Positions 11,458-27,892 of a stretch of DNA of 27,892 bases are shown here, piece after piece. Numbering within the stretch: the stretch's first letter is position 1; every line of letters begins with the position of its first letter. The position numbers and the translations under genes are program-made. The notes beneath the pieces were generated by a model. That model did not search any database. It worked only from the letters and a program-made list of their open reading frames with translations, and had not been told where the DNA came from. Source of the DNA: a virus; IMG/VR virus record IMGVR_UViG_3300035698_008087, positions 1 to 27,892 of that record; one strand, 5' to 3'.

Positions 11458-12170
11458 GCGTTGCCACCTCTAGGAGTGTATCCAGAAGGCCAACGTACTT
11501 CTTTAAAAGTAAGGCTACCATTAAGAAGTTGATATGCAAACAATTCTCTTGTCATTGCATCGCTATTGAACCGTACCATAAAATAGAATTCATAACTAAC
11601 TGTTAAAGCAGTGCTTCCACCGGGAGCTGCACCATATACTACATAAGATTTTTCAGTAGCGAAATTATTTGTTAGGGTTGCCGATACAGCGCTTCCAGCG
11701 ACATAAGCAGTGAAATTAGCACTCGTATCTACAGGGAATTCATCTAATAAAAAAGTAGTTTCAGCAGCATCGCCTGTGCCAACACTTTCAGTAGTTACTT
11801 CGTATTCTTGAGATATCTTAATTAAAAATACTCCTTCACGACCTTTTTTAGAAATAAACTTATTCCATAAAGTATCCATATCAGTAGGAGAAAGATATTC
11901 AGCATCAGCATTAAATGTTCTAAGCCCTGAATCCCATATAGAAGCACGTTGTTCTTTTCCACTTATATACGGCGTTATTTCAGTTACAAAATTTATCCCT
12001 TCTTTCATACCAAATTTTATTCCACCAGTAGGAAAAGATAAAATATCATGCGCTAATGTAGTAGTAGTTGATGTTGACGTGGTTGAAGTCGAAGTCGTTG
12101 AAGTCGATGTAGTCGATGTCGAAGTCGATGTAGTTGAAGTACTTGTTGTACTAGTTGAAGTAGTGCTCAT
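11454..12170 (-). CDS. DUF2460-family distal tail protein with N-terminal Ser/Thr tract, 238 aa
   Basis: From about residue 43 the protein matches DUF2460 (TIGR02217-type) tail proteins: FPTGGIKFGMKEGINFVTEITPYISGKEQR, then W, then a 'Y.....MDTLWNKF..KKGREGVFL' block and a C-terminal 'VRFNSDAM.RE..AYQLLNGSLTFKEVRW'. These proteins form the distal tail ring next to gpL. Residues 2-38 are purely Ser and Thr in ST and STT units and are not part of the family. ATG 12170 overlaps the tape measure stop (ATGA), so the tract begins right at the start codon. An insertion-like loop (about 112-180) has the beta-hairpin style seen elsewhere in this phage. Confidence 0.82.
   Translation of the reverse strand: MSTTSTSTTSTSTTSTSTSTTSTSTTSTSTTSTSTTTTLAHDILSFPTGGIKFGMKEGINFVTEITPYISGKEQRASIWDSGLRTFNADAEYLSPTDMDTLWNKFISKKGREGVFLIKISQEYEVTTESVGTGDAAETTFLLDEFPVDTSANFTAYVAGSAVSATLTNNFATEKSYVVYGAAPGGSTALTVSYEFYFMVRFNSDAMTRELFAYQLLNGSLTFKEVRWPSGYTPRGGNA
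12057..12167 (-). repeat. Ser/Thr tract 1 (37 codons)
   Basis: Residues 2-38 of the DUF2460 protein contain only Ser and Thr, in ST and STT units with no adjacent serines. The codons are mixed (TCG, TCA, AGT for Ser; ACT, ACA, ACG, ACC for Thr), so the pattern is kept at protein level. Confidence 0.95.
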
Positions 12171-14392
12171 GCGTACCTCTTTATTGTATGTCGAAATGGT
12201 GTATTATATATTATTGAAGCTTGATTATTAGCGTCTACTATATCTATATTTTCAGCCATAGCGTCTCTAAAAGATTTAACATCTATTGCATCAATATAAT
12301 AATTATTTGTTACATTACCACCACCTTCGTTAGGTGTAATTCCCTGATTGATTGAATTAAGTCCTTTTCGACCTAACGCCGCCATGCCAGTACGATTAAT
12401 ATATCCTTCTCCATCGTGGGCCATAACAGGGACAGCACCGATATCTCCACCAAAAGCACGACTTGTAACTTTGCCGCCGAACCTTTTCATATCGATTAAA
12501 AGATTTGAAACTGCTGCTGCTGATGTTGAAGCTGTATTTGCTACACTTGCTGCTGCACTTGTGGCTCCACCTCCACCAAAAACAGTGCCTATTATATTTT
12601 TAAATCCAAGGTTCTTAAGCCCTTCAACTACTACTAATTTAGCAATAACATCAGCAAGAACACGTAAAACTGTTTTTCCGAAACTCCTAAAATAATCTTC
12701 TAAACTATCTAATTCACCTGTCATTGCATCAAAGAAGAAATCGCTGAAATTCTGCGTCATAGCTTTAGGTAATTTAACAGCTAAAGTAACCAATTCTTTT
12801 CGCCATCCATCCCAATCTTTGAGTTGTTTTAATAAAAGAGATTTAGTTTCTTCGTCACCTGTTTTACTTAAACCTTTCATCATTTTTTGCATTGCTTCAT
12901 AGATTTCTTGAGTTTGTTTTTTAAATCCTTCTACATTTATATCAAGATCTAACTTACTATCAAGAAGTTCCTTTTCTATTTTTGCTTTCGTATCTTTAAT
13001 GCCTTTTAAAATTGAGTCTAAAGTGTCTTGCCAAGTTTCTTGATCTATCAAGTCAAGTTTAATTGGTTTTACTCTTGACTCTAACCCTGCTAATTCAGAT
13101 ATAAAGTTAACGACTTCTACTGCCCAATTTCGCGTCCACGATACAACATTTTTCTGATAAAATAAATCTATTGTATTGCCTAAACTAATAAGTTTTACTT
13201 CGAGTTGACTTACCGTTAAAATCAAATACAACATTCCATTCCAAGTATCTTTTACTATTTGCGAAAAAGTCATAAAGTTGACTATTAAGTTTGTTGTTTT
13301 AGTATTAACACCTTCCATACTATCATTAGCTAAATCAAAAGAAATAGCTAATCCTATCAAAGATTTTTGTATTGATATAATAACAGATAGCACAGCAGCG
13401 TTTTGAGTAATAAAAAATCCCATTTCTTTTGTTACATCGCCCCAGATTTGTTTTAACGCATCTGTTTGATCAGCGAAGTCCATTTGTCTTTGTGACATAC
13501 CTTTATAATTTTTATCTACTTCTTTTAGTATCTCACTCATTTCACCTGATTTCTTAGCTGAATCAGAAATCATTACGCCATAACGAGTTAAAGAACCCAC
13601 GTTGCCGGTAACAGCTTTTCCAAACAACTTAAATGCCATATCCAAATCTTCAGTTGTAGATTTAAGATTCTCACTTCCACGAACCATGTCTAAGACGCGC
13701 GGAGTTATTTCTTTTATTTGGGCAGAAGAAAGTTTGAAGGTGGCAAGCTGAGCCATACCTGCTTTGATTTGATCTTTACCGAAAGTCGTTGTTTGTTGTA
13801 ATGCACCTGCGTATTCATCTAAATTTTTAACTTGTGCTTTTGTAGCCATGCCGCTACCTCTAAAAGCAGTGACAAGTTTTCGATGTGCTTTTTCAGCTTC
13901 TAAGGCAGGTTCAATAATAGCGCGCCAAGCTTTTTGGAGTGGCCTTAATGCAAAATAATACAGCAATAACATGTTTCTTAATCTTCCTATTTGATGTTGA
14001 ATGCCACCTAAAGCCAACCGCATCCTATCGCTCTCTTTAACAAATCGTCTCTTAGCATTAGTAGTTTTTTGAGTTGCAAGGCGCATTTTAGTCATTTCTG
14101 CATTATGTGCTAAAATTTTCTCTGAAAGTCTTTCAAGAGCAGGTGTCATTTTTCCGTTTATTGCAAGGTTCATTTCTCCGTATTTACTAGCAGTAAGCTT
14201 AATAGTTCCACCAAGCTTCTTCATATTAGTAATCATATCTTTTGTTGATAGAGCGATACCTTTACCTACTGCTGTGTACTTTACACCCATAGCCTCTAAA
14301 TTCCGCTTCATATCAGTAGCGGCAGCACGAAATACGCCACTAGCTGTATCTTTTGCTGTTATATAAAGGATAGTTTCATTTTGTTTAGCCAT
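12167..14392 (-). CDS. Tail tape measure protein, about 741 aa
   Basis: The longest mainly helical protein among the tail genes, it sits directly after the G/GT chaperone pair and before the tail tip, the classical tape measure position. The N-terminus (KQNETILYITAKDTASGVFRAA) is typical of lambda-like tape measures, followed by a 'FGKDQIKAGMAQLATFKLS' block. Several long hydrophobic segments (for example AVLSVIISIQKSLIGLAISF) suit membrane insertion during DNA injection. The C-terminus is Gly/Ala-rich. ATG 14392 is preferred over 14401 because AGGGAG lies 10 bases before it. It overlaps the GT frameshift extension by 8 bases. Its length suggests a tail of roughly 110 nm at about 0.15 nm per residue. 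Confidence 0.9.
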   Translation of the reverse strand: MAKQNETILYITAKDTASGVFRAAATDMKRNLEAMGVKYTAVGKGIALSTKDMITNMKKLGGTIKLTASKYGEMNLAINGKMTPALERLSEKILAHNAEMTKMRLATQKTTNAKRRFVKESDRMRLALGGIQHQIGRLRNMLLLYYFALRPLQKAWRAIIEPALEAEKAHRKLVTAFRGSGMATKAQVKNLDEYAGALQQTTTFGKDQIKAGMAQLATFKLSSAQIKEITPRVLDMVRGSENLKSTTEDLDMAFKLFGKAVTGNVGSLTRYGVMISDSAKKSGEMSEILKEVDKNYKGMSQRQMDFADQTDALKQIWGDVTKEMGFFITQNAAVLSVIISIQKSLIGLAISFDLANDSMEGVNTKTTNLIVNFMTFSQIVKDTWNGMLYLILTVSQLEVKLISLGNTIDLFYQKNVVSWTRNWAVEVVNFISELAGLESRVKPIKLDLIDQETWQDTLDSILKGIKDTKAKIEKELLDSKLDLDINVEGFKKQTQEIYEAMQKMMKGLSKTGDEETKSLLLKQLKDWDGWRKELVTLAVKLPKAMTQNFSDFFFDAMTGELDSLEDYFRSFGKTVLRVLADVIAKLVVVEGLKNLGFKNIIGTVFGGGGATSAAASVANTASTSAAAVSNLLIDMKRFGGKVTSRAFGGDIGAVPVMAHDGEGYINRTGMAALGRKGLNSINQGITPNEGGGNVTNNYYIDAIDVKSFRDAMAENIDIVDANNQASIIYNTPFRHTIKRYA

Positions 14393-15097
14393 TAGGTTCA
14401 TTCTCCCTACGGAATTCTAATAAAGTATCATCTAAGAGTTCAAAAGTTTCAACGAGTTTGGCAGGTTGTTCTAAAATAGAACCAGAAAAAGGGAGGAACC
14501 CCTTTTGGTAGAATGTAAATAATCTTATATAAGCAAAACATTGAGTGCCTACCATTGACATTGGACACCTCTCTAATTGCTCACCATCAAAAATAAATGG
14601 GCTTAAAGCTTTATTTTTGCAACCTCTGTATTTTTGTTTATGTTCGTTACAAGTATTACAGTTTATCCCTTTAAGTAACGCTACAAATGCAAGTCTTAAC
14701 TTTTTTTTTCTTCGGTACTGATACCACTAAGCTCAGTAACAAATTTAGCTAATTCTGGAAGTATCTCTAAAGGAATCTTTTTAATAACATCTAAACTTAC
14801 TACATCATATTCAACTGCACCTAATTTACTTTTCTCTGTTTTAATAACGTACTCTTTTGCTACACCGAAATTATCTATTTTTTGAAGTGAGTAACGGATT
14901 AAATCTATTTGAACATCAAAAGCTAATTCAACATTTCCATCTTTTTCATTTAATTCACTGTCAGCGAAAATACGAGAAAAAATCTTGCCCTTTAAAATTG
15001 AATCTAAGGGCATCATATAAAAAATTGTTTTTGGTTCTTCTATATCTAACGCACTACTCCATGCCTGCACTTCACCTAATTCTATTGGTGATAACAT
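14385..15097 (-). CDS. Tail assembly chaperone GT fusion made by -1 ribosomal frameshifting, about 237 aa
   Basis: Slipping back one base at A-AAA-AAA (14708-14702) skips the G stop and continues KLRLAFVALLKGINCNTCNEH..., open for 105 codons to TAA at 14387-14385. The T-like part has four or more cysteines, CNTC near its start, YRGC, RCPMSM and GTQC, compatible with a metal site. It ends with an acidic helical segment. Lambda uses the same arrangement, with gpG and gpGT made in a fixed ratio from a slippery site, gpGT recruiting tube protein. The T frame has no start or ribosome binding site of its own. The stretch 14388-14695 would otherwise be a 300-bp gap in an operon with no others of that size. 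Confidence 0.85.
14696..15097 (-). CDS. Tail assembly chaperone, gpG-like (unshifted product), 133 aa
   Basis: ATG 15097 follows AAAAGGAGGAACTT. The product lies between a tail morphogenesis protein and the tape measure. It is acidic and helical, ends TEEKKS, and stops with TAA at 14698-14696. These are features of the lambda gpG family, which coats the tape measure during tail assembly. The end of the gene contains a run of nine A residues that serves as a frameshift site (see separate entry), making a longer G-T fusion in a minority of passes. Function rests on position and the frameshift. Confidence 0.8.
   Translation of the reverse strand: MLSPIELGEVQAWSSALDIEEPKTIFYMMPLDSILKGKIFSRIFADSELNEKDGNVELAFDVQIDLIRYSLQKIDNFGVAKEYVIKTEKSKLGAVEYDVVSLDVIKKIPLEILPELAKFVTELSGISTEEKKS
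14702..14708 (-). promoter_or_regulatory. Slippery heptamer A-AAA-AAA for -1 frameshifting
   Basis: In frame the codons are GAA GAA AAA AAA AGT TAA. The last A of GAA plus two AAA codons gives X-XXY-YYZ, allowing both tRNA-Lys to re-pair one base back. The stop codon follows one codon later. I did not identify a clear downstream stimulator structure. Confidence 0.85.
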
Positions 15098-15110
15098 AAG
15101 TTCCTCCTTT

Positions 15111-15632
15111 TTATCCTAAATAGGACATTTCTAATTTTATCTTCTGCCTAATCTTCTTGACAGTTTTATTTAATGAAGCATTCATTATTCTAGCGAGAAT
15201 TTTGTTTCCTTCTAACATATCACCCTTTGTCACACCAAAAAATTGCCGCCTTGTTTTTGTGTGTTGGTTCACACCTTCAATCATATGATAAGTTGCCTTT
15301 GTTTCTTGCTTTGTATCTCTTGCATAATAACCTACTCTGTATTGCCCTCGAGCAACTTTTATCGGTCTTATTGCAGCTATCATCTTACCTGTACGAATCA
15401 ATGCTTTCTTAGCATTAACTCCAAAACCTAACCTTTTTTTATCAGCTATAGTTTTTTCTGCTAAATGTTTCATCTGCCGGCCGTCACCTCTGTATCCTTT
15501 ACGCACTCTTTTCTTCATGTTAGTTGCATAAAGAGTCGCTACAGATAAAGCAGCTTTATTCAATGTTGCTGTCATATCTTGTGGCACATCAAAATTAAAA
15601 TCAATATCAATCCCAAAAAGTGGTATTCCCAT
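15111..15632 (-). CDS. Tail completion / virion morphogenesis protein (gpG of Mu or HK97 gp10-like), 173 aa
   Basis: It contains 'ALIRTGKMIAAIRP' (a Leu/Ile-x-x-Thr-Gly-x-hydrophobic motif followed by basic residues) and 'RRQFFGVTKGD', both typical of the phage virion morphogenesis or tail-completion family that joins tail to head. It is basic, with a helical C-terminus. It starts at ATG 15632, three bases after the tail tube stop. The upstream DNA is the Ser/Thr tract of the tube gene, so there is no Shine-Dalgarno, and translation probably depends on ribosomes ending the previous gene. Order after the tube protein differs from some phages. Confidence 0.65.
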   Translation of the reverse strand: MGIPLFGIDIDFNFDVPQDMTATLNKAALSVATLYATNMKKRVRKGYRGDGRQMKHLAEKTIADKKRLGFGVNAKKALIRTGKMIAAIRPIKVARGQYRVGYYARDTKQETKATYHMIEGVNQHTKTRRQFFGVTKGDMLEGNKILARIMNASLNKTVKKIRQKIKLEMSYLG

Positions 15633-15634
15633 AA

Positions 15635-16651
15635 TTACGACGTTGTTGATGTTGTTGACGTTGTACTCGTTGATGTCGTTGATGTTGACGTACTTGTTGT
15701 TGTTGTTGTATCAGTAAAAGCAATACTTAATTCATCATCACCTGAACTCATATTCAATTCTGCTGTACAGTTATATACTCTTACACCGTCTCTGTCGCCT
15801 TCACCTACAATTGTATACCTTGCTTTTGGCATACTTAACACACATTGCAAATAATCAGCCGCAACTAATGTGATTGAAATAGCTGCCTCTGTTGTAGAAT
15901 GCAATTTCCCAATAAAATCATGCGTAGCTACAAGCTCTGCTTCAGGGTCAAATGTGGCAATTGGATTCCTTTCTGTAACTTGAGAATGGTATATCCCTGT
16001 TGAATCTCCGAAATATGGCTTTGCGATTACTGTGTTTTGTAAATCTATTTCAAAATTGTCTATATACAAAGTATCAGTGAATACTGTGACTTGGGCATTC
16101 TGGAAAATAAAAGGCACTGAAGCAGGGTAAGTAGGTGACAACATAGCTTCATCTTCACAAGTTGAATATTTCCCTGTGAAAGTGAACTCTATCATTACTG
16201 GTTCGCCTGTCTTACCAATTATCTTAGCATTACCCATTGCGCCACAAAGTAGCTTTTTAACACCGTCTTCCCAAATTCCAATAGATAATGTCTTCATCGT
16301 ATCAGCATCACTCTCAGGAGTGTATGTCGACGATGTACTACCACTTAAAGCTTCTTCCATCCCACATCCTTGCAATAACGTACCTACAACAGAAGTTATG
16401 CCTAAAGTGGCATATGGTGGCCCCATAAACTCAACTCTAAACGTAACTTCAGCTAATTGCGTTCCCGGAATAGAGTTCATTCGTGAAATGGTTTTCCTAA
16501 AAGCATTACGCTTAAACTGAGCTGTATTGAAATTAAATGTAGGTTCATAAGCTAAAACAGTAGCTTGTGCTGCCTCTAAAGTTTCAACTGTACCTTTAGC
16601 GTCCTCAACCTTTACTGCCATTTGACATCTGCGTGTTAACATATCTCCCAT
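15635..16651 (-). CDS. Major tail tube protein with C-terminal Ser/Thr tract, 338 aa
   Basis: ATG 16651 lies 5 bases after AAAGGAGG. Features fitting a tube subunit are: the 'FKRNAFRKTISRMNSIPGTQLAEVTFRVEFMG' N-terminal block, a beta-rich centre, 'ERNPIATFDPEAELVATHDFIGKLHS' around 230-255, and a C-terminal beta segment 'RVYNCTAELNMSSGDDELSIAF'. Its place is after the tail terminator and before the chaperones. Residues 315-338 are Ser/Thr-only, ending at the stop, so hundreds of copies per tail could each display a flexible Ser/Thr tail if the C-terminus faces outward. Confidence 0.78.
   Translation of the reverse strand: MGDMLTRRCQMAVKVEDAKGTVETLEAAQATVLAYEPTFNFNTAQFKRNAFRKTISRMNSIPGTQLAEVTFRVEFMGPPYATLGITSVVGTLLQGCGMEEALSGSTSSTYTPESDADTMKTLSIGIWEDGVKKLLCGAMGNAKIIGKTGEPVMIEFTFTGKYSTCEDEAMLSPTYPASVPFIFQNAQVTVFTDTLYIDNFEIDLQNTVIAKPYFGDSTGIYHSQVTERNPIATFDPEAELVATHDFIGKLHSTTEAAISITLVAADYLQCVLSMPKARYTIVGEGDRDGVRVYNCTAELNMSSGDDELSIAFTDTTTTTSTSTSTTSTSTTSTTSTTS
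15638..15709 (-). repeat. Ser/Thr tract 2 (24 codons, C-terminal)
   Basis: Residues 315-338 of the tail tube protein are Ser/Thr-only and run up to the stop codon. This is the one complete tract at a C-terminus. Confidence 0.95.
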
Positions 16652-16662
16652 AATTTCCTCCT

Positions 16663-17112
16663 TTAACCAAAAACTACTCGTTCTCTTATAGATACTTTAA
16701 TATCAGCACGGTGACATAAGACGTTTCCATACATCTCATTAGCAAATTCACACGTGATCGGGTATTTTACTACCTCCGCTGTATTCTCTAATTTAGGCTT
16801 ATCTCTAAATGCCTCACCTACTAATGCAGCAAGAGATTGAAAAGTTTTTTCAGTAGCTAATGAATCATCTACTGCGTACCTTCCTATAATTAAAAAATCG
16901 TATGTAGTTCTTTCTGTAGCGTCAGAACCCATAACAGCTTTTTCGTAATTTTCTACTGTTAATTCCCAAAGATGTATTTTTCCACTTTTGACATTTTCTT
17001 TTTTATATGTATCCCAATTAGTAATATGCCGTTTATAATCGTGAACCACCCCTATACCAGAAACAGCTTCAACGATGGTTTTCACCTGTGCTCTAATCGT
17101 AGACATACTCAT
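16663..17112 (-). CDS. Tail terminator-like / neck protein, 149 aa
   Basis: ATG 17112 follows AAAAGGT at normal spacing. The N-terminus 'STIRAQVKTIVEAVSGIGVVHDY' is an amphipathic helix followed by a beta strand, and the C-terminus 'CHRADIKVSIRERVVFG' is a beta strand pair. This alpha-beta layout and its size fit gpU-like tail terminators, which cap the tail tube at the head. Position between the connector and the tube gene agrees. The stop is TAA at 16663. Assigned mainly from order and secondary-structure pattern. Confidence 0.6.
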   Translation of the reverse strand: MSMSTIRAQVKTIVEAVSGIGVVHDYKRHITNWDTYKKENVKSGKIHLWELTVENYEKAVMGSDATERTTYDFLIIGRYAVDDSLATEKTFQSLAALVGEAFRDKPKLENTAEVVKYPITCEFANEMYGNVLCHRADIKVSIRERVVFG

Positions 17113-17153
17113 ATTGTAGTACCTTTTATATTAACTTCTTTGTATCCCCCGGC

Positions 17154-17972
17154 TTATCTTTGCCTAGAAGGATGCGTTAAATAGTCTCCGCCACAAGGGA
17201 AAGTTAGATCGAGGTCTTTAAAGGCCATGCCTGCAGATGGTGCTATTTCACTAGTACCACCTTTAACGCCTTTGCCCATATGTGAATTGTAGAAATCCAG
17301 ATATGTATTGGCTAATGCCTCACACTCATCTCGTTTCGAGAGGTAGTCTATTGAATCAGCACTATAAGTGGACTCAATAGTTTGAGTGTAGTATGCAGCG
17401 AGGGCCTTGAAGCAGAAAGCAGTTGCTAAATCACTAAACGCACCCAAATCTCTTTCATAGATCGTACAAGCTTCTTGATCTATGACATGAGCAATACTAT
17501 ACTTATACTTTAAAATGGCACTACTCGCAGGAGTAAATCCTGTGAGTCTTAATTTTTCTGTGTCAGTAGCGTCTCTATAAATAACCCAATCATTATCATC
17601 AACTAATTGAATTTGCTGATATACATCAACATCTACAGGATACTCTATTTGCCCGTAGATTTGAGAGAACCCTACTTCCCAATCCGAGGGAAGGTCAAAC
17701 TGAAAAGTTGAGCCATCCCCCGTTTCGGTCTTAATTTTTATATAAGGCCTATCTCTATCATAAGATATCTTAGCTTTTTGAATATACGTTTCGTGATCAT
17801 CTATTTCAAGAAGCTCGGCCTTATCTTGTAAGTTAGTTCTTATACGTCTTAACACATCACCTATTGTAAGATGTGGAGCAAGGCTAGTCGTAGTCGAAGT
17901 TGTAGAAGTCGTCGATGTAGAAGTCGTTGATGTACTTGTTGTTGACGTACTTGTTGTACTGGTCGTTGACAT
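17154..17972 (-). CDS. Head-tail connector / adaptor-like protein with N-terminal Ser/Thr tract, 272 aa
   Basis: ATG 17972 follows AGGAGAAAAGG. Residues 2-30 are Ser/Thr-only. Then comes 'LTIGDVLRRIRTNLQDKAELLEIDDHETYIQKAKISYDRDRPYIKI', a helical start followed by a beta-rich region, and a helical C-terminal half with 'DLATAFCFKALAAYYTQTIESTYSADSIDYLSKRDECEALANTYLDFY'. The helical bundle end resembles phage head-completion adaptors. Placed between the capsid and tail modules it is most likely part of the neck. Confidence 0.6.
   Translation of the reverse strand: MSTTSTTSTSTTSTSTTSTSTTSTTSTTTSLAPHLTIGDVLRRIRTNLQDKAELLEIDDHETYIQKAKISYDRDRPYIKIKTETGDGSTFQFDLPSDWEVGFSQIYGQIEYPVDVDVYQQIQLVDDNDWVIYRDATDTEKLRLTGFTPASSAILKYKYSIAHVIDQEACTIYERDLGAFSDLATAFCFKALAAYYTQTIESTYSADSIDYLSKRDECEALANTYLDFYNSHMGKGVKGGTSEIAPSAGMAFKDLDLTFPCGGDYLTHPSRQR
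17883..17969 (-). repeat. Ser/Thr tract 3 (29 codons)
   Basis: Residues 2-30 of the connector-like protein are Ser/Thr-only, directly after the start codon, in the same ST and STT unit pattern as tract 1. Confidence 0.95.
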
Positions 17973-17992: not shown

Positions 17993-18460
17993 CTAAGCTT
18001 TATATATCAATACTTCACATCCTGCTGATAATCTACTTATAAACATACCTCTTGAGAACGTAGCCGGTGCTGCAAAAGTACGTTCTTTTGTATATCCATA
18101 TGCTGATACATCACCTAACTTCGCATATCATATTCTATGTATTTGCGCTTCGTCTCTATCTATTTCACATTCATCATTATCGGCAGTACCTATAAACTCA
18201 AACCCTAATACTGTCATTGGTTTATTCGATACTAATCCAATTTCTCTACATCTTATAGGATTCCCTGCTGTGTAAATACCTGTAGAAGTAGTCGTACTTG
18301 ATGTCGTTGATGTCGAAGTCGTAGAAGTCGAAGTCGTAGAAGTCGAAGTCGTTGACGTAGAAGTCGAAGTCGTCGAAGTAGAAGTCGTAGACGTTGAAGT
18401 CGAAGTCGTAGACGTAGAAGTCGTTGACGTTGATGTGCTAGTAGTAGAAGTTGTAGACAT
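17993..18460 (-). CDS. Ser/Thr-tagged virion protein with an in-frame TGA (110 aa, or 155 aa if read through)
   Basis: ATG 18460 follows AAAGGAGATTTATT. Residues 2-60 are Ser/Thr-only, the longest complete tract. About 50 residues of ordinary sequence follow (GIYTAGNPIRCREIGLV ... EIDRDEAQIHRI), then TGA at 18130-18128. The same frame continues for 44 codons, YAKLGDVSAYGYTKERTF...AGCEVLIYKA, to TAG at 17995-17993. The extension has the composition of a normal protein and starts without any ATG or ribosome binding site. If TGA is obeyed, the product is 110 residues and 155 bp (17973-18127) are non-coding. Located between the decoration-like protein and the connector, it may be a capsid decoration or neck component. 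Family unknown. Confidence 0.6.
18281..18457 (-). repeat. Ser/Thr tract 4 (59 codons)
   Basis: Residues 2-60 are Ser/Thr only, mostly in ST and STT units, with a single adjacent Ser pair near the end. This is the longest complete tract in the window. Confidence 0.95.
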
Positions 18461-18833: not shown

Positions 18834-18847
18834 TTTAACCTCCTGTT

Positions 18848-18939: not shown

Positions 18940-20871
18940 CTAAGCAACTATTCCTGCAGCATAAGCTCTATAATCAGGAACAACGCCACCATACTCATGT
19001 CTTACTTTATATCTGATTGTATCGTAAACGAACACGTTCCCGACAGTAGGCTGATCCTGTACAAGAATCTCAGGATTTTCTTTTCCATTCAAGAAACCTA
19101 TTTCAATCAGTTCGATCTGCTCTTTCATTGCTGAAAGATAATAGTTATTCGTATCGCCACGAAGATAAGGAGACACTTTTGTTTGGAAAGCACCCTTCAA
19201 AGTATTGATACCATTCTCAACATTTTCAGGATGAAGCTCTGAATTCTCTATTTTTAATGCAGTACCTTGTCGTCTTTTAGGAACCCAAAGATTAGGACTA
19301 TCTAATCCAATGATATCTGTAATTTTATAAACATATGAACTTACTGCATGTTGAGCAGCCGTTGTTCCCATGATACCTCTTACAATTGTTAAGGCATCGG
19401 TTGCAACACTATCTACTCTCATATACTCACCAAATATCTCAATAATATCTCCGGCTTTGAAATATTGGCCAGTTCCACCTGTTACATTCAAGGTAGTTGC
19501 ACTATCAGTTAAAGGACTATCTGTGCTTAATGTTTGATTACCCTGTTCACCTTGGTTATACATTTGTGACAATATCTCGTCAATAGCATCGAAATCCAAC
19601 GCATCAGTGCTATAGTTATTATGTGCAGCAGCAAAAAGAGCTGTAGAATTAGCTGTGCCGTCTTTAGCAGGCCATTTAACAGCAGTATTAATACCTGTAA
19701 CCGTATAACCCATCATTAAATCAAATACGAACTGATTCAATGTTCTACTTGCGGCACGACTAAGTTTAGAAGGTATCTTTTTCAAGCTACGAAGATCATC
19801 ATTGATGATTGCGCGTCTTGTTACAGTTACCAACCCACCCTTAGTAGCAACAGCGTATGTCTGCTCAGTATCAACAGGGAAACCGAGTTCTGGATAAGTA
19901 GGAGTAGCAGTATCAGTAGAAGTTCCTTGAGTCGTTCTTGCAGCTACAACTTCAGGAAGAACACCAAACCCGCCCCACTTAATCAACTCAACCATTTTGA
20001 AATCTTTAACGCCAACAACATTAGCAATCTCTTTCCATAAATAGCCTAGCGTTTTATACTCTTTCTGCATCTTTCTGTTAATCGAATAACCAAGCATATA
20101 ACTAAAACTTCCGCTAGTGGCTTCCTGCAGACTCTTTTTTGAGTACTGGCCAACCACTTCAATGTCACCGGTTAGATTAACATATGCTTCTCTTAAACCT
20201 TCAAAAGCTTCTATACCGTCATAGTCAGCTTTTTCATCATCTGCTATGTCACCGTCAAGCATTAAATCAAGAGACGCCTGCAACTTTTCTACAGGAGCTT
20301 TTGTACCTTCAAAGCGAAATGTCTCTTCGCCAATATCAAAACCTGCATCACTTTCTACCAATTTAGCTAAAGTTGCTTTTTCAGCTTTAAGATCTGCTTT
20401 CAAAACTGCTTCAGTAAAAATGGTATTATGATACTTGGCTTTAATTTTATCTTTGATTGGCTGCGGCAATTTACTTTCAGCAAGGTGTGAAATTAAAATA
20501 CCATTACATTCTCTTAGCGATTCTTTCTTTTCAAGACGTGCCATTTTTTTGTTTAGGCCATCAATCTTTGCATTAGCTTCTTTTAATGCTCCATCGTCTT
20601 TCTTTTCATCATCTTCTTTCTTTTCATCATCTTCTTTCTTCTCATCATCATCTTTCTTCTCATCGTCGTCTTTCTTCTCATCGTCGTCTTTCTTCTCATC
20701 ATCATCTTTCTTCTCATCGTCGTCTTTCTTCTCGTCGTCGTCTTTCTTCTCGTCGTCTGGAATAGACTCAAATATCGTCATTACTTCCGCTTCTGTGAGA
20801 TTCTCAAGGTCTTTGCCTTCGAGTAAATCAGGGTGGCGTTTCTTTAAGAAATCAAGCACTTTCTTAAACAT
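18940..20871 (-). CDS. Internal in-frame start giving scaffold-major capsid protein, 643 aa
   Basis: Met205 of the fusion (ATG 20871-20869, MFKKVLDFLKK) is preceded by GGAGG at 20883-20879 with a 7-base spacer, an ideal ribosome binding site inside the coding frame. It lies exactly at the end of the protease domain. Independent initiation here would make scaffold plus capsid without protease, in excess over the full-length fusion, as lambda Nu3 is made from within gene C. Inferred from sequence; not shown experimentally. Confidence 0.7.
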   Translation of the reverse strand: MFKKVLDFLKKRHPDLLEGKDLENLTEAEVMTIFESIPDDEKKDDDEKKDDDEKKDDDEKKDDDEKKDDDEKKDDDEKKEDDEKKEDDEKKDDGALKEANAKIDGLNKKMARLEKKESLRECNGILISHLAESKLPQPIKDKIKAKYHNTIFTEAVLKADLKAEKATLAKLVESDAGFDIGEETFRFEGTKAPVEKLQASLDLMLDGDIADDEKADYDGIEAFEGLREAYVNLTGDIEVVGQYSKKSLQEATSGSFSYMLGYSINRKMQKEYKTLGYLWKEIANVVGVKDFKMVELIKWGGFGVLPEVVAARTTQGTSTDTATPTYPELGFPVDTEQTYAVATKGGLVTVTRRAIINDDLRSLKKIPSKLSRAASRTLNQFVFDLMMGYTVTGINTAVKWPAKDGTANSTALFAAAHNNYSTDALDFDAIDEILSQMYNQGEQGNQTLSTDSPLTDSATTLNVTGGTGQYFKAGDIIEIFGEYMRVDSVATDALTIVRGIMGTTAAQHAVSSYVYKITDIIGLDSPNLWVPKRRQGTALKIENSELHPENVENGINTLKGAFQTKVSPYLRGDTNNYYLSAMKEQIELIEIGFLNGKENPEILVQDQPTVGNVFVYDTIRYKVRHEYGGVVPDYRAYAAGIVA

Positions 20872-21581: not shown

Positions 21582-21611
21582 ATTATAAGAACAGAGAATA
21601 AAAAAAGTCAA
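21582..21611 (-). promoter_or_regulatory. Sigma-70-type promoter for the capsid gene
   Basis: On the minus strand TTGACT (21611-21606), an 18-base spacer, then TATAAT (21587-21582). It lies in the 143-bp AT-rich gap after the ligase-like gene and about 100 bp before the capsid start. The gap holds no gene; a 29-codon ORF from ATG 21526 overlapping the capsid start out of frame is not supported. A dedicated promoter would raise capsid transcription relative to terminase and portal. Confidence 0.75.
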
Positions 21612-21641
21612 GTAAAATCTTTTAATAACTAATAAATAAGC

Positions 21642-23570
21642 TTACTTAGCAACTTGCGATAGTTCCCAAATAGAAGCTTTTGGAGTAGCTCTTTTTAAGT
21701 TTAATGTTTGTTTTAGCTTCGTACCCTTAAACTCAAATGTCTTAATGAGTTGCGAATTTTCTACGATAATTACAGCCCCTTTATCTAGTAAATCTATCCA
21801 AGCAGAGACGTTTTTATCCAAGCTAATACGCTCTACACACTCCCCTTTATTCATAAGTTCTTTGTTTTCACATAGTTTCGTATATGCAGACATACTACTT
21901 GTTTCCAAGGGATTACTCTCTAGGATCAATTGTAAGGCACTATTATCTTTATCTGATACAAAGATATGCCAATTCATCTGTCCACCTTTTTGCCATTGAT
22001 GCTGTAAAGTGAATATGCCTTCTTTTATACATTTAACAAAATCAGTTTTCTTTACTTTTTCTACTAAGGCGTTTCTTTTTTCTTTTGCTTTTATTAGAGT
22101 CTTTGCTTCCCAGAAACGCATCTGGATCGGCAAACCTTCTCTTATACTTTGAGGAAGGGTGGAAACTCCTAGTGGCGGCATCCAATCTTCTTCGATAGCT
22201 TCTTTCGAGAGCACCATAGGCTTTTGGGTTATTGGAAGTATCATTGCCCATTGTTTATCCCTCCCATACTTACATACGATCTGTTTTGATTCTTGAACTA
22301 AATCAATACTTTTAATGTAATCTTCTGGGTGCAATTTGGCATCTTCTACTATAAAATCTAAATCCTCCTTAAGTATATTAGACAAGAACACAGTCTTTAA
22401 ATAATTGTCTTCTAACAATTTTGATGAAACATTGGTCTTTCTAAATAACACGCGCATACTTTCGTTTGACGTATGGCAAAAAAACTCTTTTATATATGCT
22501 TCTTGTATTCCTAACTCTATAAATACATCTTTATCCTTTATAAGAGTGTCTTTATCTAAAAATGCTAAATCAATGTCTTTAAGTTTATGAAAACTACTTT
22601 CATTCAAATAATCTGCTTTATCTTTAGCTATAAGCTCTAAGGCACTTGTGAATTTAGGCTTTAGTTCAGTGCTGATATCAATTGCTTCAGAGATTTTCTT
22701 AACTTCTTTATTAGAATCAAACATGAAGTGCGACATTCCATATAAAGGATATACCATAGTATTTAGTTTAAATATAGATTCAGAAAACATCTTACAAACA
22801 TTATCCACTTCTTCTTTATTGTTTGTTATCATTATAGGTATTAAATTAATATGGAATTTTTCAAAGTCAACATTTTCTGTGAGTGATTGCGGAAAACTCA
22901 ATTCGTCAAAATATTGCATCCGTTCTTTAAATGTCTTCTTATGTAGATCTTCTTTTTTATACCATAAGATATCTGATATATGAGCACACATTTTATCTTC
23001 TATTATTTCTATAGTAGCTTCTAGTATAAAATCATGGGCACTTAAATCTTGTACTGATTCAATTATATCTTTATACTTAGAAGTAACTTTTTCACCTGAT
23101 TCAGAAAACATTATTACATTGTTTTGCTTACTTCTTTTATTTTTATGGATTTGAATGTATTCACCAGAGAACTTCTTCTGTGCAAACACTTCCTGTTCTG
23201 TTATAGACATTACATTACCCATAGGAGTAGCACCAATAAAAAACTCATTGAGTTTAATAGAATCTTTTTTATATGCGGTTTTAGCAGAAAGCCTAGATTT
23301 AAAATCCTTTATTTTATTATTGATGGTGAAACTTTCAAAGAACCACTTTGCTCTATTTGTTTGAATCGCGCAATAAAAATCATTTGTTTCAATTGCAATA
23401 TTTCTATTATCTATTTCCTCAATTAAAGGCATACCCTTATTAATAAGAAATCCTCTTTCAGTAACAATTGACTCTAGCATATAGAGGCTGCTTAATTTTT
23501 GGAATGTATCTTTTAATTGTATGTCAGACAAGTTTTTTGCTTCGTTAAGCGTAATGTCCGATATCCTCAT
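21642..23570 (-). CDS. DNA ligase adenylation-like + LigD phosphoesterase-like protein, probably catalytically degenerate, 642 aa
   Basis: Residues 128-225 follow ATP-dependent DNA ligases: FAQKKFSGEYIQIHK (motif I, normally KxDG, here K133-F-S-G), MFSESGEKVT, FILEATIE (motif III) and ISDILWYKKEDLHKKTFKERMQYFDEL (motif IIIa). Residues 518-642 resemble the LigD 3'-phosphoesterase fold: IFTLQHQWQKGGQMNWHIFV, ESNPLE, KGAVIIVENSQLIKTFEFKGTKLK. The usual His-x-Asp-x-Arg in that domain reads Asn-Trp-His-Ile-Phe-Val, so the active site looks lost. The middle 230-440 is helical and unknown. ATG 23570 follows TAGGAGG and overlaps the portal gene by 26 bases. Between portal and capsid it may serve in the head or at packaged DNA ends. 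Confidence 0.6.
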   Translation of the reverse strand: MRISDITLNEAKNLSDIQLKDTFQKLSSLYMLESIVTERGFLINKGMPLIEEIDNRNIAIETNDFYCAIQTNRAKWFFESFTINNKIKDFKSRLSAKTAYKKDSIKLNEFFIGATPMGNVMSITEQEVFAQKKFSGEYIQIHKNKRSKQNNVIMFSESGEKVTSKYKDIIESVQDLSAHDFILEATIEIIEDKMCAHISDILWYKKEDLHKKTFKERMQYFDELSFPQSLTENVDFEKFHINLIPIMITNNKEEVDNVCKMFSESIFKLNTMVYPLYGMSHFMFDSNKEVKKISEAIDISTELKPKFTSALELIAKDKADYLNESSFHKLKDIDLAFLDKDTLIKDKDVFIELGIQEAYIKEFFCHTSNESMRVLFRKTNVSSKLLEDNYLKTVFLSNILKEDLDFIVEDAKLHPEDYIKSIDLVQESKQIVCKYGRDKQWAMILPITQKPMVLSKEAIEEDWMPPLGVSTLPQSIREGLPIQMRFWEAKTLIKAKEKRNALVEKVKKTDFVKCIKEGIFTLQHQWQKGGQMNWHIFVSDKDNSALQLILESNPLETSSMSAYTKLCENKELMNKGECVERISLDKNVSAWIDLLDKGAVIIVENSQLIKTFEFKGTKLKQTLNLKRATPKASIWELSQVAK

Positions 23571-25071
23571 CGTAATCGCCTCCTACTTTTTTTCTCCCTT
23601 TTCGTTTCTCTTTAACTGGAAGTTTTTCTTTCTTTACAGGATTAACTTTTTTAGGAACATTTTTCTTTTTATCAATAACGACTTCATCTTCGTCTTTATC
23701 ATTTTTATCATCATCATCAACATCTTCATCTTCTAAATCTAGTTTATCTATTTCGACACCAATCTGTCCCATGAAAGTGCTGAAAGCTTTTTTAGCTCCT
23801 TCTTCAGTTATCCATCCTGCATTTTGCGCATTAGCTAAAGCATCTACATAGTTACTTAATGCGTATGATGTTGTTTTCATATCTTTAGCAACTAACGGTG
23901 AAGGAATGATTACAAATGTCGTATCTTCTTCATCTGTTAATTCGTCATGCAAAATGGCTTGGTCAATAACAAATTTAATAATGAATTCTAACATATGCTT
24001 AACGTATCTCTGCCTAGTCTTAAGCTTCTTTAGCGTCGGAACTGACATCTCCAAAGCAGTTGCTCTGGTAGTTCCACCACCTTCACCAAACCAATGCTCA
24101 GGATACCCTGCACCACCGATTATTATATTTCTAAACATTGATGCTTCATTTACAGCGTCAGCACCTTCTAACTTAGGAGAAACTGTGTCCCATTTAATTA
24201 ATTCGTTATGTACTCTTACTGAACCAGATTGCGGCACAGCTAAATTCTTAGCAAACGCTGTCAGTTCATTAGCTGCCATTCCAGTACATTCAACATCCCA
24301 AATAAATGTATTTAATAAAAAGGCTCGTTCTAATCTAGCAAATAAGAATTGGTCGTATCCATCTATCCAATCACAAAGCGTTAATAAATCACTTCTTCCT
24401 CTAGTAGCAGTAGAAACTGAGTTAATAAAGAAATAAAATGCTTCTCCTGTTAACTTACCAAAGGATTCAGATTTAACGTCATTATCTACATTAACTATTT
24501 CCATTTGAGCTGTAGTGCGTTCTCTGACATTCTTGTAATAAACGATTTTTTCTAATCTTTGCGAATTACGACGATTACACTTAATACTTTTCACTCTGGA
24601 AGGATCTAAATAACCTAGCTTCACAGAACCATTAACTTTATTAACCCATACAGGATAAGTTTGTTCTCCCCATAAAGAAAGCTCTAAAACTTTCTGATCA
24701 ATGGTAATATCAATATTATTATCTGGGTCATGCCAAAATTTATCTATTATCTCTTTTACTTTTGGATTCTTAGCATTATATGAAAATCCGTCTCCAACAA
24801 CAAAGTCTCTTGTTATTTCAATCATTCGATGTGCAATAGGATTAGAATCAAATAAATAAAAAGCGATTTCTTGCATCCTAGTTTGCGTAACAGTAGGCAA
24901 ATCTCGTGGCTGTTCATTACCAGATAAAGACCGCCATTGAGCTTCTTCTTTGTTGATGCCTATCATAGGAAAATTCTCTTGAAGTTTCTTATTCAATGCT
25001 TGAGCGTCTGTTCTGCGTTCAGAAAAACTTTTTTGTTTCATTTCTTTTTTTACTTTCTTTACTTTTGCCAT
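23545..25071 (-). CDS. Portal protein, 508 aa
   Basis: ATG 25071 follows GAAGGAGTTCAAT and overlaps TerL by 13 bases. A helical and beta-mixed protein of normal portal length, it has 'FYLFDSNPIAHRMIEITRDFVVGDGFSY' near residue 70, 'QKVLELSLWGEQTYPVWVN', 'LGYLDPSRVKSI', 'STATRGRSDLLTLCDWIDGYDQFLFARLER', and 'GGGTTRATALEMSVPTLKKLKTRQRYVKHMLEFI' near 335-370. These fit SPP1 gp6-type portals, the dodecameric ring through which TerL packs DNA. It ends in a strongly acidic block (DDDDKNDKDEDE) followed by a Lys-rich tail. The order TerS-TerL-portal supports the call. Confidence 0.88.
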   Translation of the reverse strand: MAKVKKVKKEMKQKSFSERRTDAQALNKKLQENFPMIGINKEEAQWRSLSGNEQPRDLPTVTQTRMQEIAFYLFDSNPIAHRMIEITRDFVVGDGFSYNAKNPKVKEIIDKFWHDPDNNIDITIDQKVLELSLWGEQTYPVWVNKVNGSVKLGYLDPSRVKSIKCNRRNSQRLEKIVYYKNVRERTTAQMEIVNVDNDVKSESFGKLTGEAFYFFINSVSTATRGRSDLLTLCDWIDGYDQFLFARLERAFLLNTFIWDVECTGMAANELTAFAKNLAVPQSGSVRVHNELIKWDTVSPKLEGADAVNEASMFRNIIIGGAGYPEHWFGEGGGTTRATALEMSVPTLKKLKTRQRYVKHMLEFIIKFVIDQAILHDELTDEEDTTFVIIPSPLVAKDMKTTSYALSNYVDALANAQNAGWITEEGAKKAFSTFMGQIGVEIDKLDLEDEDVDDDDKNDKDEDEVVIDKKKNVPKKVNPVKKEKLPVKEKRKGRKKVGGDYDEDIGHYA

Positions 25072-26684
25072 ATTGAACTCCTTCTGTTATTATGAGAGTT
25101 TAATTGTATAATACTCATTGGTGATGTAACAACTTTTTCGAGTTTATTTTCTTTTTGTTTCTTATCTAAATCATCCCCAAACAAACCACGCTTTCTCTCT
25201 GTTGGTTGAGGATTTTTATTAATTGCAATATCAATACCGACTGCTTTGATTATAGGAAAAATATTAATAATAATATATTCAAAAGCATTTGTTCTATGTG
25301 TTGACCAATCATCAATATGGTCTGTGCGATGCTTATTTAATCTGCAATTTGATAATGCTCCAAAGAACTTCTCACAAGTCGGCTCTTTTGAAACAATTAC
25401 TTTAGGAATACCTCCGTGCTTCCCACGCAATGCAGTCTTTACTGCTCTCATCTTATCTCGATTACTTATTTCTTTAGTCTTTATTTTTAACTGTCCTTTT
25501 GTTAAAGCAGCGTATTCTTGTATGACATTAGTCTTTGTTAATCTGGAACGATGCTTCCCTGCTGGGTCGCCATAAGCCTCTAAGTCACTTAATTCACCTC
25601 TGAAACCTAATTGACCGAGTATTCGAAGCATGTTTTCTATATGGTCTTTCGTTAATAAATCTTTCCCTGTATAAGAATGCAATAAAACAAATCTTTCAAA
25701 AAGCCCTAATCTAATTTTCTGACCAAACAAAATCACTTCTTCAGATAAACCAAAATCAAATCCTAATATTAACGGTTCATTAGGGTCATAATATAATTTA
25801 GTTCGTGAAACATGAACATCTTCTTTTGCTTCAGGATAAGACTTTTCACTATCTTTAGTTGAATAACTTATTTCTTGTTCTTGCTCCCATTCCTCTTCCG
25901 TCATAGTTAACTGTTTCTTCTTCATCCAATCTTCATCTTTATGAGGGTTTTGTGACCAGTGAAACCTTATTATTTTAAAAGATTTATTTTTTAATGCACG
26001 TTCTTTAATCTCGACATATTTATTGTCATTAGGATTAGACGGTGGCGTTGAGTTAACACATAAAGATTCTGTTGAATTAGAACATCCTTTCCACATTTCT
26101 CTGAGTACACCTTGGTCTATATGCGCTGCTTCATCAATAAGAATAAATTTATATTGTGTATCTCTACCGGCTTTAGGATTAGCTGAAGAACCTTTAATAA
26201 CAGAATTAGTCGACATCACATTAAAAGATAGTTTTGGATTGTGCATTTTTAACTGTAAGAAGAATGGTAATCTCGTATACATAAAATCTAATCTTCCAAA
26301 CAAAGAGTGATATGTCTTTCCAGTATCTTCAACTTCGTTCTCTTTTAAAGATATATTCAAAGAAGCAAAAGCGTTAGTAAACAATGCTTGATGAAGCTGC
26401 CACGCCATTATTGTCCATGAAACACCCATAGCACGTGATTTTTCTATGAAAGTATTATTAAACTTCGTTAAATCATCCACTAAATCGCAAAGATACGGCC
26501 ATGGCTCCATAATGGCAATAGCCGGCTTTAAGTTTGGATTTATATAATGACAATAATTATATATAAAGTATTTAGGGTCAGCAGCGCATTTCTGATACTC
26601 AGAAATAGCAAAATCTTTCTGGTCAGCTCTACTGAGGCTGTCCCAACCCAGCAATATCTTCTGCGGAGAATCCTTGCTTTTCAT
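25059..26684 (-). CDS. terL: Terminase large subunit (ATPase/nuclease), 541 aa
   Basis: It has a Walker A-type KSRAMGVSW near residues 82-90 (a deviant P-loop as in many terminases), Walker B FILIDEAAH near 180-188, and a C-terminal nuclease with Asp310 (LGFDFGLSE), Asp373 (YGDPAG) and Asp459 or 460 (HIDDW). It is the motor that cuts concatemers and drives DNA into the head through the portal. ATG 26684 overlaps TerS by 56 bases, with GGAGG 14 bases upstream; a later start is possible but would remove N-terminal residues. The C-terminus ends in a basic, Asn/Ser-rich tail. Confidence 0.93.
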   Translation of the reverse strand: MKSKDSPQKILLGWDSLSRADQKDFAISEYQKCAADPKYFIYNYCHYINPNLKPAIAIMEPWPYLCDLVDDLTKFNNTFIEKSRAMGVSWTIMAWQLHQALFTNAFASLNISLKENEVEDTGKTYHSLFGRLDFMYTRLPFFLQLKMHNPKLSFNVMSTNSVIKGSSANPKAGRDTQYKFILIDEAAHIDQGVLREMWKGCSNSTESLCVNSTPPSNPNDNKYVEIKERALKNKSFKIIRFHWSQNPHKDEDWMKKKQLTMTEEEWEQEQEISYSTKDSEKSYPEAKEDVHVSRTKLYYDPNEPLILGFDFGLSEEVILFGQKIRLGLFERFVLLHSYTGKDLLTKDHIENMLRILGQLGFRGELSDLEAYGDPAGKHRSRLTKTNVIQEYAALTKGQLKIKTKEISNRDKMRAVKTALRGKHGGIPKVIVSKEPTCEKFFGALSNCRLNKHRTDHIDDWSTHRTNAFEYIIINIFPIIKAVGIDIAINKNPQPTERKRGLFGDDLDKKQKENKLEKVVTSPMSIIQLNSHNNRRSSIWQK

Positions 26685-27135
26685 GGACTTTTGTTTCGCC
26701 TCCCATTAAGAGTAGTTCAAGTTTTACCAATCTCTCAAATTGATTAAGATTAGCTTTCATTACTAATTCGCCATTATCAACACGCTCTTGAAATTTACCT
26801 ATTACTTTTCGTACCATCACCAACAATTCTTTCCTTCTAGTCAATATGTGTTCATCTAGCATCGTATAAGTTTTATCTTGTAAAAATTCTAGGCGCACCT
26901 TCAAAGGTTTAATACTTCTTTTTATATCACCTTTCTCAAAGTACTTCTTACCAGTATCATAAGAAATCTCAACTCTATTACATGCCGCTTTTAAACTAAG
27001 CCCTTCCGTTAACGCTTCGTATAAATCCTCGATTTTGGTTTCAGGTAGTCGATACTGATATCCGTACCCTTCCTTTTTATTTTTCGGAAGAGTTAAATTT
27101 GCTAATGAATTTGGATTCATTTGTCTTTGTGTCAT
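26629..27135 (-). CDS. terS: Terminase small subunit, 168 aa
   Basis: ATG 27135 follows GAGGAGATTAATTGTA. Residues about 34-66 form a helix-turn-helix of small terminases (EDLYEALTEGLSLKAACNRVEISYDTGKKYF), followed by long charged helices for ring assembly (about 80-145). It lies directly before TerL. Small terminase subunits recognise the packaging site and regulate TerL. The C-terminal tail is acidic and Gly-rich. The packaging site itself cannot be identified here. Confidence 0.82.
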   Translation of the reverse strand: MTQRQMNPNSLANLTLPKNKKEGYGYQYRLPETKIEDLYEALTEGLSLKAACNRVEISYDTGKKYFEKGDIKRSIKPLKVRLEFLQDKTYTMLDEHILTRRKELLVMVRKVIGKFQERVDNGELVMKANLNQFERLVKLELLLMGGETKVHEKQGFSAEDIAGLGQPQ

Positions 27136-27140
27136 TACAA

Positions 27141-27440
27141 TTAATCTCCTCTCTTTTTTCTAACAACAAAATCTATTCTACCTGTACGCTCATCTGCGCC
27201 AGTAGAAAATTTCGCTGTTAAGAATGCACTATATGAGCCTGCGGCTAAATCAGATATTTTATAATATACTACCGTCCCAGAAATACTCGCTGTAGTAGAA
27301 CTTAATATTGACCTAGAATTGCTTTTTCTTTCCCATATTTCAACTAACCCTGAATTTGCATCAGGCGTTTGCGCTACATTCTCAATTTCCCATTGACCTC
27401 GCAACGTTACATCATCATTCACATAATATTCATGCCGCAT
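27141..27440 (-). CDS. Small Ig-like beta protein, 99 aa
   Basis: ATG 27440 follows AAAGGGGGTGAAATA. The sequence alternates beta strands with short loops: 'DVTLRGQWEIEN', 'GLVEIWERKSN', 'SGTVVYYKISDLAAGSYSAFLTAKFSTG', 'RTGRIDFVVRKK'. The pattern 'G.v.y...DL..G.Y.a.....G......g...f.V' is common in phage Ig-like beta-sandwich proteins, such as baseplate or fibre-associated domains. Its place between the Ser/Thr-repeat gene and TerS gives no clear role. It may decorate the capsid or a fibre. Confidence 0.6.
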   Translation of the reverse strand: MRHEYYVNDDVTLRGQWEIENVAQTPDANSGLVEIWERKSNSRSILSSTTASISGTVVYYKISDLAAGSYSAFLTAKFSTGADERTGRIDFVVRKKRGD

Positions 27441-27455
27441 TATTTCACCCCCTTT

Positions 27456-27892
27456 TTACGGGTTATCATTAAAATCGTAATTATACGTTTTATCTTTAAA
27501 TTTATAATCATTTGTCTTATCAACAAAATCGTAATCATAAGTTTTTTCTACAAAAATATATTCAGCAGGAGCGATAGTTGTTGTAGTCGATGTTGTACTC
27601 GTTGATGTCGTAGACGTAGATGTCGTTGAAGTACTTGTTGTTGACGTAGTACTAGTTGAAGTTGTAGATGTACTCGTTGTACTAGTCGTACTTGTTGATG
27701 TTGTTGAAGTCGAAGTAGTCGACGTACTTGTTGTACTAGTCGTACTTGTTGATGTTGTTGACGTAGAAGTAGTCGACGTACTTGTTGTACTAGTCGTACT
27801 TGTTGATGTTGTTGACGTAGAAGTAGTCGACGTACTCGTTGTAGAAGTTGTACTCGTTGATGTTGTTGAAGTCGAAGTAGTCGACGTGCTCG
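27456..27892 (-). CDS. Ser/Thr-repeat protein, 5' end beyond the window
   Basis: The frame is open to the right edge, with TAA at 27458-27456. At least 105 residues next to the edge are Ser/Thr only, in ST and STT units, then TTTTIAPAEY. It ends in three 9-residue units, KTYDYDFVD, KTNDYKFKD and KTYNYDFND, and DNP at the C-terminus. The start is not seen, so whether more domains precede is unknown. It shares the tract with three head or neck/tail proteins and the tube protein, which suggests a virion protein. Confidence 0.65.
   Translation of the reverse strand, partial: STSTTSTSTTSTSTTSTTSTSTTSTSTTSTSTTSTTSTSTTSTSTTSTSTTSTTSTSTTSTSTTSTSTTSTTSTSTTSTSTTSTTSTSTTSTSTTSTSTTSTTTTIAPAEYIFVEKTYDYDFVDKTNDYKFKDKTYNYDFNDNP
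27576..27892 (-). repeat. Ser/Thr tract 5 (at least 105 codons, cut by edge)
   Basis: The coding strand is a run of ACN and TCN/AGY codons. On the + strand it reads as GTN-GAN-like 15-18 bp units, including near-identical copies such as GTACTTGTTGTACTAGTC at about 60-bp spacing. It is the longest tract in the window. Confidence 0.95.

Follow-up and report, generated by a model that had tools for sequence, protein, structure and literature searches.

Serine/threonine-only tracts on the virion proteins of an uncultured siphophage-type virus and its relatives: probable acceptor tails for O-glycosylation by phage enzymes

The window analysed here, the entire 27,892-bp IMG/VR record IMGVR_UViG_3300035698_008087, carries a siphophage-type late region on its minus strand, in which five genes encode tracts composed only of Ser and Thr (S/T). 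The late region begins with a fibre-like gene, an immunoglobulin-like (Ig-like) protein, the small and large terminase, the portal and a 642-residue protein. It continues with a protease-major capsid protein (MCP) fusion, a small head protein, the protein labelled '17993', an SU10-like adaptor and neck proteins, and ends with the tail tube, tape measure, DUF2460 protein, tail assembly protein and a J-like tip. A six-frame search found exactly five S/T-only runs in the window, all on the minus strand. Their lengths (24, 29, 37, 59 and at least 105 residues) and ends agree with those in the initial annotation of this sequence: three lie behind an ATG, one ends at a stop codon and one is cut by the contig edge. 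The tracts, the genes that carry them and two associated features are:

27576..27890, minus strand: S/T-only tract of at least 105 residues in the fibre-like gene, truncated by the contig end, with 54-bp internal repeats
18281..18457, minus strand: S/T-only tract of 59 residues, immediately behind the ATG
17883..17969, minus strand: S/T-only tract of 29 residues, immediately behind the ATG
15638..15709, minus strand: S/T-only tract of 24 residues, terminating at the stop codon
12057..12167, minus strand: S/T-only tract of 37 residues, immediately behind the ATG
27456..27890, minus strand: 3' part of the fibre-like gene; its C-terminus, KTYDYDFVDKTNDYKFKDKTYNYDF, resembles relatives' fibre genes directly downstream of a glycosylation cassette
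17993..18460, minus strand: putative head/connector-region protein ('17993'); C-terminal domain conserved in relatives
18128..18130, minus strand: in-frame TGA, aligned with a Trp codon of relatives L040/L041
17154..17972, minus strand: SU10-adaptor-like head-tail connector with N-terminal tract; SU10 adaptor (PF24175) match below the gathering cut-off
15635..16651, minus strand: major tail tube protein with C-terminal tract (alignment, structure model, Foldseek)
11454..12170, minus strand: DUF2460 distal-tail protein with N-terminal tract (Pfam)
20594-20757, minus strand: (EKKDDD)n linker of 18-bp tandem repeats in the protease-MCP fusion gene; its antisense frame mimics a Ser/Phe tract

A plausible Shine-Dalgarno sequence precedes each of the three ATGs in front of N-terminal tracts. 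As the initial annotation had noted, synonymous codons are mixed within the tracts, with all four Thr codons and Ser codons from both the TCN and AGY boxes in use. SS dipeptides were observed 0, 1, 0, 0 and 0 times in the five tracts, versus 14.8, 9.3, 3.8, 2.3 and 5.0 expected from shuffles, so Ser is spaced by one or two Thr and the pattern is ordered beyond composition, not a product of chance. Tandem repeats of 36 and 54 bp occur inside the tracts; in the best self-alignment of the 105-residue run, at 18 codons, there are 29 synonymous versus 3 nonsynonymous codon differences. A Ser/Phe run near 20.6 kb on the opposite strand was discarded as an antisense artefact of the (EKKDDD)n linker.

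The domains adjoining the tracts come from unrelated families, as initially described. The protein at 11454-12170 matches DUF2460 (PF09343) at 78.4 bits (gathering cut-off 30.4, E 6.6e-22), and that at 17154-17972 reaches 20.9 bits against the SU10 adaptor family (gathering cut-off 27, E 5.6e-4), an assignment with which its location between the MCP and the tail tube is consistent. In a Foldseek search, the model of the protein at 15635..16651 matches the tail tubes of T5 (pb6), P74-26 and SH-Ab15497 (E 6e-10 to 2e-8), and the protein is predicted to have this siphophage tail tube fold; confidence in the model is moderate, with a predicted local distance difference test (pLDDT) score of 72, and the tract part is without order (pLDDT below 50). 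The MCP carries no tract. For '17993' the tract is real, but the gene is not open throughout in the standard code: the reading frame stops at the TGA at 18128-18130, and 17993 is the next in-frame stop, a TAG, up to which homologous sequence continues. A recoded TGA was rejected: TGA is an ordinary stop elsewhere in the window (ATGA overlap at 11454-11457), which leaves a nonsense mutation or a sequencing error as the probable origin of the one at 18128.

About 25 related viral contigs were retrieved with tail tube and protease-MCP profiles. The adaptor body as sole query found no relatives among viral contigs, and a first scan for the pattern MSTTST returned largely poly-Thr or antisense repeat noise but did yield L005 and L010. 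One distant, tractless, GC-rich phage (L073, 29% identity) was dropped as a source of orthologues. All 17 aligned tail tubes end in an S/T-type tract directly behind the conserved end of the fold (...GDDE-x-S-x-x-F), mixed S/T in 10, the window included, and poly-Ser in 7. The Ser fraction is bimodal, at 0.33-0.38 in 12 genomes forming the window's clade (the ST clade) and 0.91-0.96 in 13 genomes of a sister clade. The first dialect is about 37% Ser and 63% Thr, and the second is poly-Ser punctuated by F, L, E, Y or other residues. Although the genes are unrelated, all tract genes of one genome share the same dialect. In the tail tube tree each dialect occupies one side of a single branch (support 89/88 and 94/99), with tractless relatives outside, which fits one switch or two separate gains. 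A third dialect, of mostly Thr tracts, is found in about six genes between 97 and 128 kb of the 141-kb phage IMGVR_UViG_3300032018_000001.

The 61 real tracts in eight contigs (62 before removal of the antisense artefact in the window) all lie inside the virion module, and none is in a replication, host-takeover or early gene. At the very end of one contig (G011), just past the annotated virion module, there is one more tract gene, probably another piece of fibre. Many contigs begin or end within an S/T tract, among them the window, G002, G006, G010, L067, L068 and others. Assemblers break at the tracts, so that such phages are probably under-represented and frequently split in error, and these breaks bias what can be observed. 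Outside the clade and unrelated to it by blastp, IMGVR_UViG_3300002460_002255 encodes a 1606-residue protein in which two runs, 616 and 624 residues long, are S/T-only.

Comparison with tractless homologues indicates that the tract is an addition and not a domain. The tail tubes of a phage from an Omnitrophota metagenome-assembled genome (MAG; L104) and of further genomes of that phylum stop in the same region and have no tract, as do those of Agrobacterium phage JP1, Alteromonas phage P24 and Microcystis phage Mae-JY22. The homologous tail tube is tractless in every such siphophage and Omnitrophota prophage compared, and Mae-JY22 additionally shares the protease-MCP and an adaptor-like gene with the window. 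Adaptors of the poly-Ser clade begin where the tract of the window adaptor stops. The DUF2460 tract is N-terminal in the window and in L051, which retains the ancestral start (MAN...) behind it, and C-terminal in L045, L065, L071 and L103; thus it is possession of a tail that recurs, whichever terminus bears it. Among 285 genomes sampled from the Omnitrophota phylum, about 13 to 15 also contained tail tube relatives (L281-L292), two of them in a 1.9-Mb contig of G107 and all tractless where read. These loci are possibly a prophage family of that phylum, host assignment from MAGs being weak.

These comparisons bear on a proposal of the initial annotation, that tracts at gene ends serve as in-frame recombination joints for swapping genes. 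Taken further, the tracts would be low-complexity DNA spread by slippage or recombination and kept as joints, with no role for the protein sequence. The 36- and 54-bp tandem repeats, the many contig breaks inside tracts and a stretch of 57 bp that is identical in two G005 tract genes favour such a process. Against it, relatives show the tract absent and the domain boundary unchanged, a pattern that the initial annotation had named as adverse to its proposals; it counts against joints, not against appended tails. The repeat copies of the longest tract differ overwhelmingly at synonymous codons, both Ser codon boxes are used, and tracts occur only in virion genes. Tracts of different genomes show no DNA sharing above a codon-shuffled control, and different-gene tracts within a genome share codon runs of 4.8 versus 4.2 in such controls. 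This test also led us to reject concerted evolution by gene conversion as the main cause, with the G005 pair as one exception. The joint proposal is mostly unsupported, the G005 pair showing that tracts can occasionally recombine, and an origin in roleless DNA is very improbable.

The protein sequence itself appears to be under selection. Between L045 and L047 the tail tube tract and the adaptor tract, of 21 S/T residues each, are identical in protein, yet 24 of their 42 codons differ, four of them by two or more bases and 15 by a single synonymous transversion. There are no exchanges between Ser and Thr, which are all transversions and make up 43% of the transversion opportunity (P about 2e-4). 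The adaptor bodies of the same pair are only 54% identical. In 7 of 7 ST relatives compared, but not in the window, the adaptor tract closes with the same 11 residues, STTSTTSTSTT. Identical tracts with codon drift, together with the little DNA sharing, suggest that the dialect is maintained mainly at the protein level.

In contigs that reach upstream of the tract-bearing fibre gene, a cassette of sugar genes lies at that place. In the poly-Ser clade (G007, G008, G009 and others) a protein resembling glycosyltransferase family 8 (GT8), with an LDADM (DxD) motif, is encoded directly upstream of the poly-Ser fibre, accompanied by a second glycosyltransferase-like protein without a Pfam match and several O-methyltransferases. 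The model of the GT8-like protein (pLDDT 82) matches LARGE1, glycogenin, LgtC and pneumococcal GlyE in a fold search (E from 3e-8), and so supports a GT8 fold for this cassette gene. The O-methyltransferase genes beside the glycosyltransferases in relatives' cassettes belong to Methyltransf_24, Methyltransf_3 and RMNT_CmcI. In L103, whose MAG and the Omnitrophota MAG of L104 appear to share a phylum, a different set occupies the same place beside poly-Ser: a DegT aminotransferase, a GT1-like domain, a rhamnosyl O-methyltransferase (E 1.8e-56) and further methyltransferase genes.

In the ST clade, G006 encodes at 49.9-63.3 kb four GT2 enzymes, GT1/GT4, RmlD, a GDP-mannose dehydratase with an intein, DegT and a sulfotransferase; this cassette runs into the contig end, and the fibre gene of G006 starts at base 1. 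Glycosyltransferase genes of L271 (GT2, GT1/GT4) that are homologous to those of G006 stop 290 bp short of the Ig-like gene and terminase, which supports the adjacency of cassette and fibre in G006. Downstream of the tail genes lie RmlB and RmlA in G006, RmlB in G005 and UDP-galactopyranose mutase in G002. The intein in the dehydratase gene has a LAGLIDADG domain, and intein-like sequence occurs in a GT2 gene of G006 and in the portal gene of L271; the two G006 loci are 55216-57288 and 62568-63263 (L076, L077).

When the GT8-like profile alone was searched in 2.9 million viral contigs, it retrieved 24 loci, which fall into 13 distinct contigs or genomes; two of these 13 (G008 and G018) are near-identical phages. 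Poly-Ser tracts are present in 13 of 13, usually 2-5 kb downstream, end-cut contigs having been checked on the whole record. One of the 13 is a 63.8-kb genome present in about ten samples with shifted starts, and thus circular or permuted. Three others, L248, L249 and L250, have no blastp similarity to the clade's virion genes in the stretches compared and possess a different capsid-like gene set, but have five to seven cassette genes in common with the clade, at 38-60% identity, and carry poly-Ser tracts in genes of their own. L272 also lacks matches to virion genes of the clade, and behind its GT2/DegT cassette come genes that bear S/T tracts. As a control, 14 stretches from isolated phages and from tractless relatives, 262 kb in all, contained no tract.

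The cassettes could instead modify the host surface, for receptor masking or superinfection exclusion, or the phage DNA, with their proximity to tracts an accident of the late operon. The Glf, Rml and GMD genes have a role in surface polysaccharides too, and known examples of both types of phage glycosyltransferase are discussed in PMC12619734. This alternative is unlikely given the co-occurrence in all 13 contigs, the apparently unrelated phages in which the same cassette accompanies poly-Ser tracts, and the different cassette of L103 at the same place beside poly-Ser.

Another possibility is that the tracts are unmodified flexible hydrophilic tails, serving as an entropic brush, a spacer or a direct adhesive, with the nearby sugar genes put to some other purpose. 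The tail tube tract is indeed modelled as disordered, internal S/T linkers occur in many unrelated viral contigs, and Ser/Thr-rich low-complexity stretches are frequent in bacterial polysaccharide-binding proteins (PMC6821194). A plain spacer, however, would admit Gly, Pro, Ala, Asn and Gln as well as exchange of Ser and Thr, whereas the tracts use nearly only hydroxyl residues, in a register that survives codon drift and a dialect equal across genes. Nor would unmodified tails predict that a GT8-like gene retrieves poly-Ser phages only, and we consider this explanation unlikely.

The tracts are probably acceptor tails for O-glycans, modified by phage enzymes. The initial annotation had suggested O-glycosylated or otherwise modified tails on head and tail; the confinement of tracts to the virion module, the conserved S/T register and the association with glycosyltransferase, sugar and O-methyltransferase cassettes support that suggestion well, by inference, and point to tract and cassette as acceptor and writer. 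As disordered, solvent-exposed tails, the tracts would receive sugars on their Ser and Thr hydroxyls from phage glycosyltransferases during or after synthesis of the late proteins, supplied from host pools and by phage-encoded sugar-nucleotide enzymes. O-methyltransferases, and in one relative a sulfotransferase, may decorate the tails further. On the assembled virion, fibre, connector, tail tube and distal tail would then bear a glycan brush like that of mucins. The enzymes of any one phage would favour a single acceptor dialect, either Ser residues separated by one or two Thr or poly-Ser punctuated by hydrophobic residues, and all tracts of a genome would come to share it. The tract termini are expected to face outward, which for the tail tube C-terminus follows what is generally known of T5-type tubes. 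Because the window contig breaks off within the fibre gene, any cassette of its own would lie outside; this phage presumably has one beyond the cut end. The benefit would be shielding, hydration or glycan mimicry.

Several observations weigh against this interpretation. No glycan has been seen, and action of the cassette enzymes on the tracts is deduced from their association, which could also arise if the same genes modified the host envelope or phage DNA. The window fragment has no family-2 glycosyltransferase, and there is no glycan gene among the window reading frames examined. In the ST clade the match of dialect and cassette is based on few closed loci: adjacency in G006 is deduced from contig ends, and L271 (8 kb), the sole direct case, has no tract-bearing fibre gene between cassette and terminase. 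L269, with 40% identity to the second glycosyltransferase-like protein, shows no tract in the 18 kb read. The tail tube model is of moderate confidence, and from it alone the C-terminus cannot be placed outside the tube.

The proposed system would work like the glycosylation of mycobacteriophage virions, though with apparently unrelated enzymes and with tract dialects spread over several proteins. In mycobacteriophages, capsid and tail tube subunits carry their glycans at the C-termini (PMC12619734), and the glycans shield both structures from antibodies (PMC12363180, PMC12619734). The tail tube here bears its S/T tract at the C-terminus. Glycosyltransferases beside an O-methyltransferase in tailed phages are a further likeness, as described for Che8, Corndog and Myrna (Freeman et al. 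2023, through citing papers). In cluster O phages, whose capsid and tail tube are modified, three tandem glycosyltransferase genes lie downstream of an O-methyltransferase gene (PMC11600133), the nearest known gene arrangement to these cassettes. Unlike that system, the phages described here carry tails on connector, fibre and distal tail proteins and none on the MCP, and the accessible parts of its descriptions mention no genome-wide S/T-only dialect (PMC12619734, PMC12363180, PMC11600133). Among the relatives, G006, L271 and the poly-Ser clade have phage glycosyltransferase genes. For the GT8-like and second glycosyltransferase-like proteins of the poly-Ser cassette, tblastn at 1e-3 gave no match among 50,697 deposited phage genomes, PHROGs gave none either, and thus the two are not filed in the mycobacteriophage enzyme family; this negative covers those two proteins, not the family-2 enzymes of the ST clade. 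No description of Ser/Thr or poly-Ser tails on phage virions was found in the literature covered, most subscription papers being outside its scope.

Bacterial serine-rich repeat glycoproteins, such as PsrP with GlyE and GtfA/GtfB, also combine long Ser-rich acceptors with linked glycosyltransferases, and GlyE is among the GT8 folds matched by the GT8-like model. Those proteins are exported Gram-positive adhesins, whereas the present ones are virion proteins with mostly terminal tracts. Eukaryotic mucin-type O-glycosylated tandem repeats offer a functional analogy, as disordered repeats of hydroxyl residues forming a glycan brush, but the tracts lack a Pro-Thr-Ser repeat and homology to mucins, and assembly is prokaryotic and cytoplasmic. 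By analogy with mycobacteriophages, shielding of an environmental phage is plausible. Such a phage meets proteases, surfaces and polysaccharides, not antibodies, and hydration, anti-aggregation or mimicry of host glycans are guesses.

Two other loci in the window deserve mention. The 642-residue reading frame between portal and MCP (21642-23570, minus strand) has a weak match to an ATP-dependent DNA ligase domain (E 3.5e-6); the gene that occupies its position in G008, G009 and G011, three relatives of the poly-Ser clade, opens, by eye, with a segment resembling a D12-class adenine methyltransferase. On the plus strand, a phage-borne GroES (4495-4800, Cpn10, E 2.6e-17) adjoins a family-less reading frame resembling an outer-membrane barrel (3743-4468).

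We lean, by a modest degree, towards a broader view, in which uncultured 'mucin-coated' phages are widespread: on different virion backbones, unrelated virion proteins would have been tagged independently in a dialect of the lineage, matched to a horizontally mobile cassette of glycosyltransferase and sugar methylase genes. If so, glycosylation of phage particle proteins would be a modular trait of uncultured phages, legible in genome sequence alone, with tract dialect predicting cassette and cassette predicting tracts. The tracts would supply an acceptor code for new, potentially useful glycosyltransferases that act on simple S/T or poly-Ser peptides. It would also explain why assemblies break at tract genes, and surface sugar chemistry would enter models of the stability and adsorption of phages in the environment.

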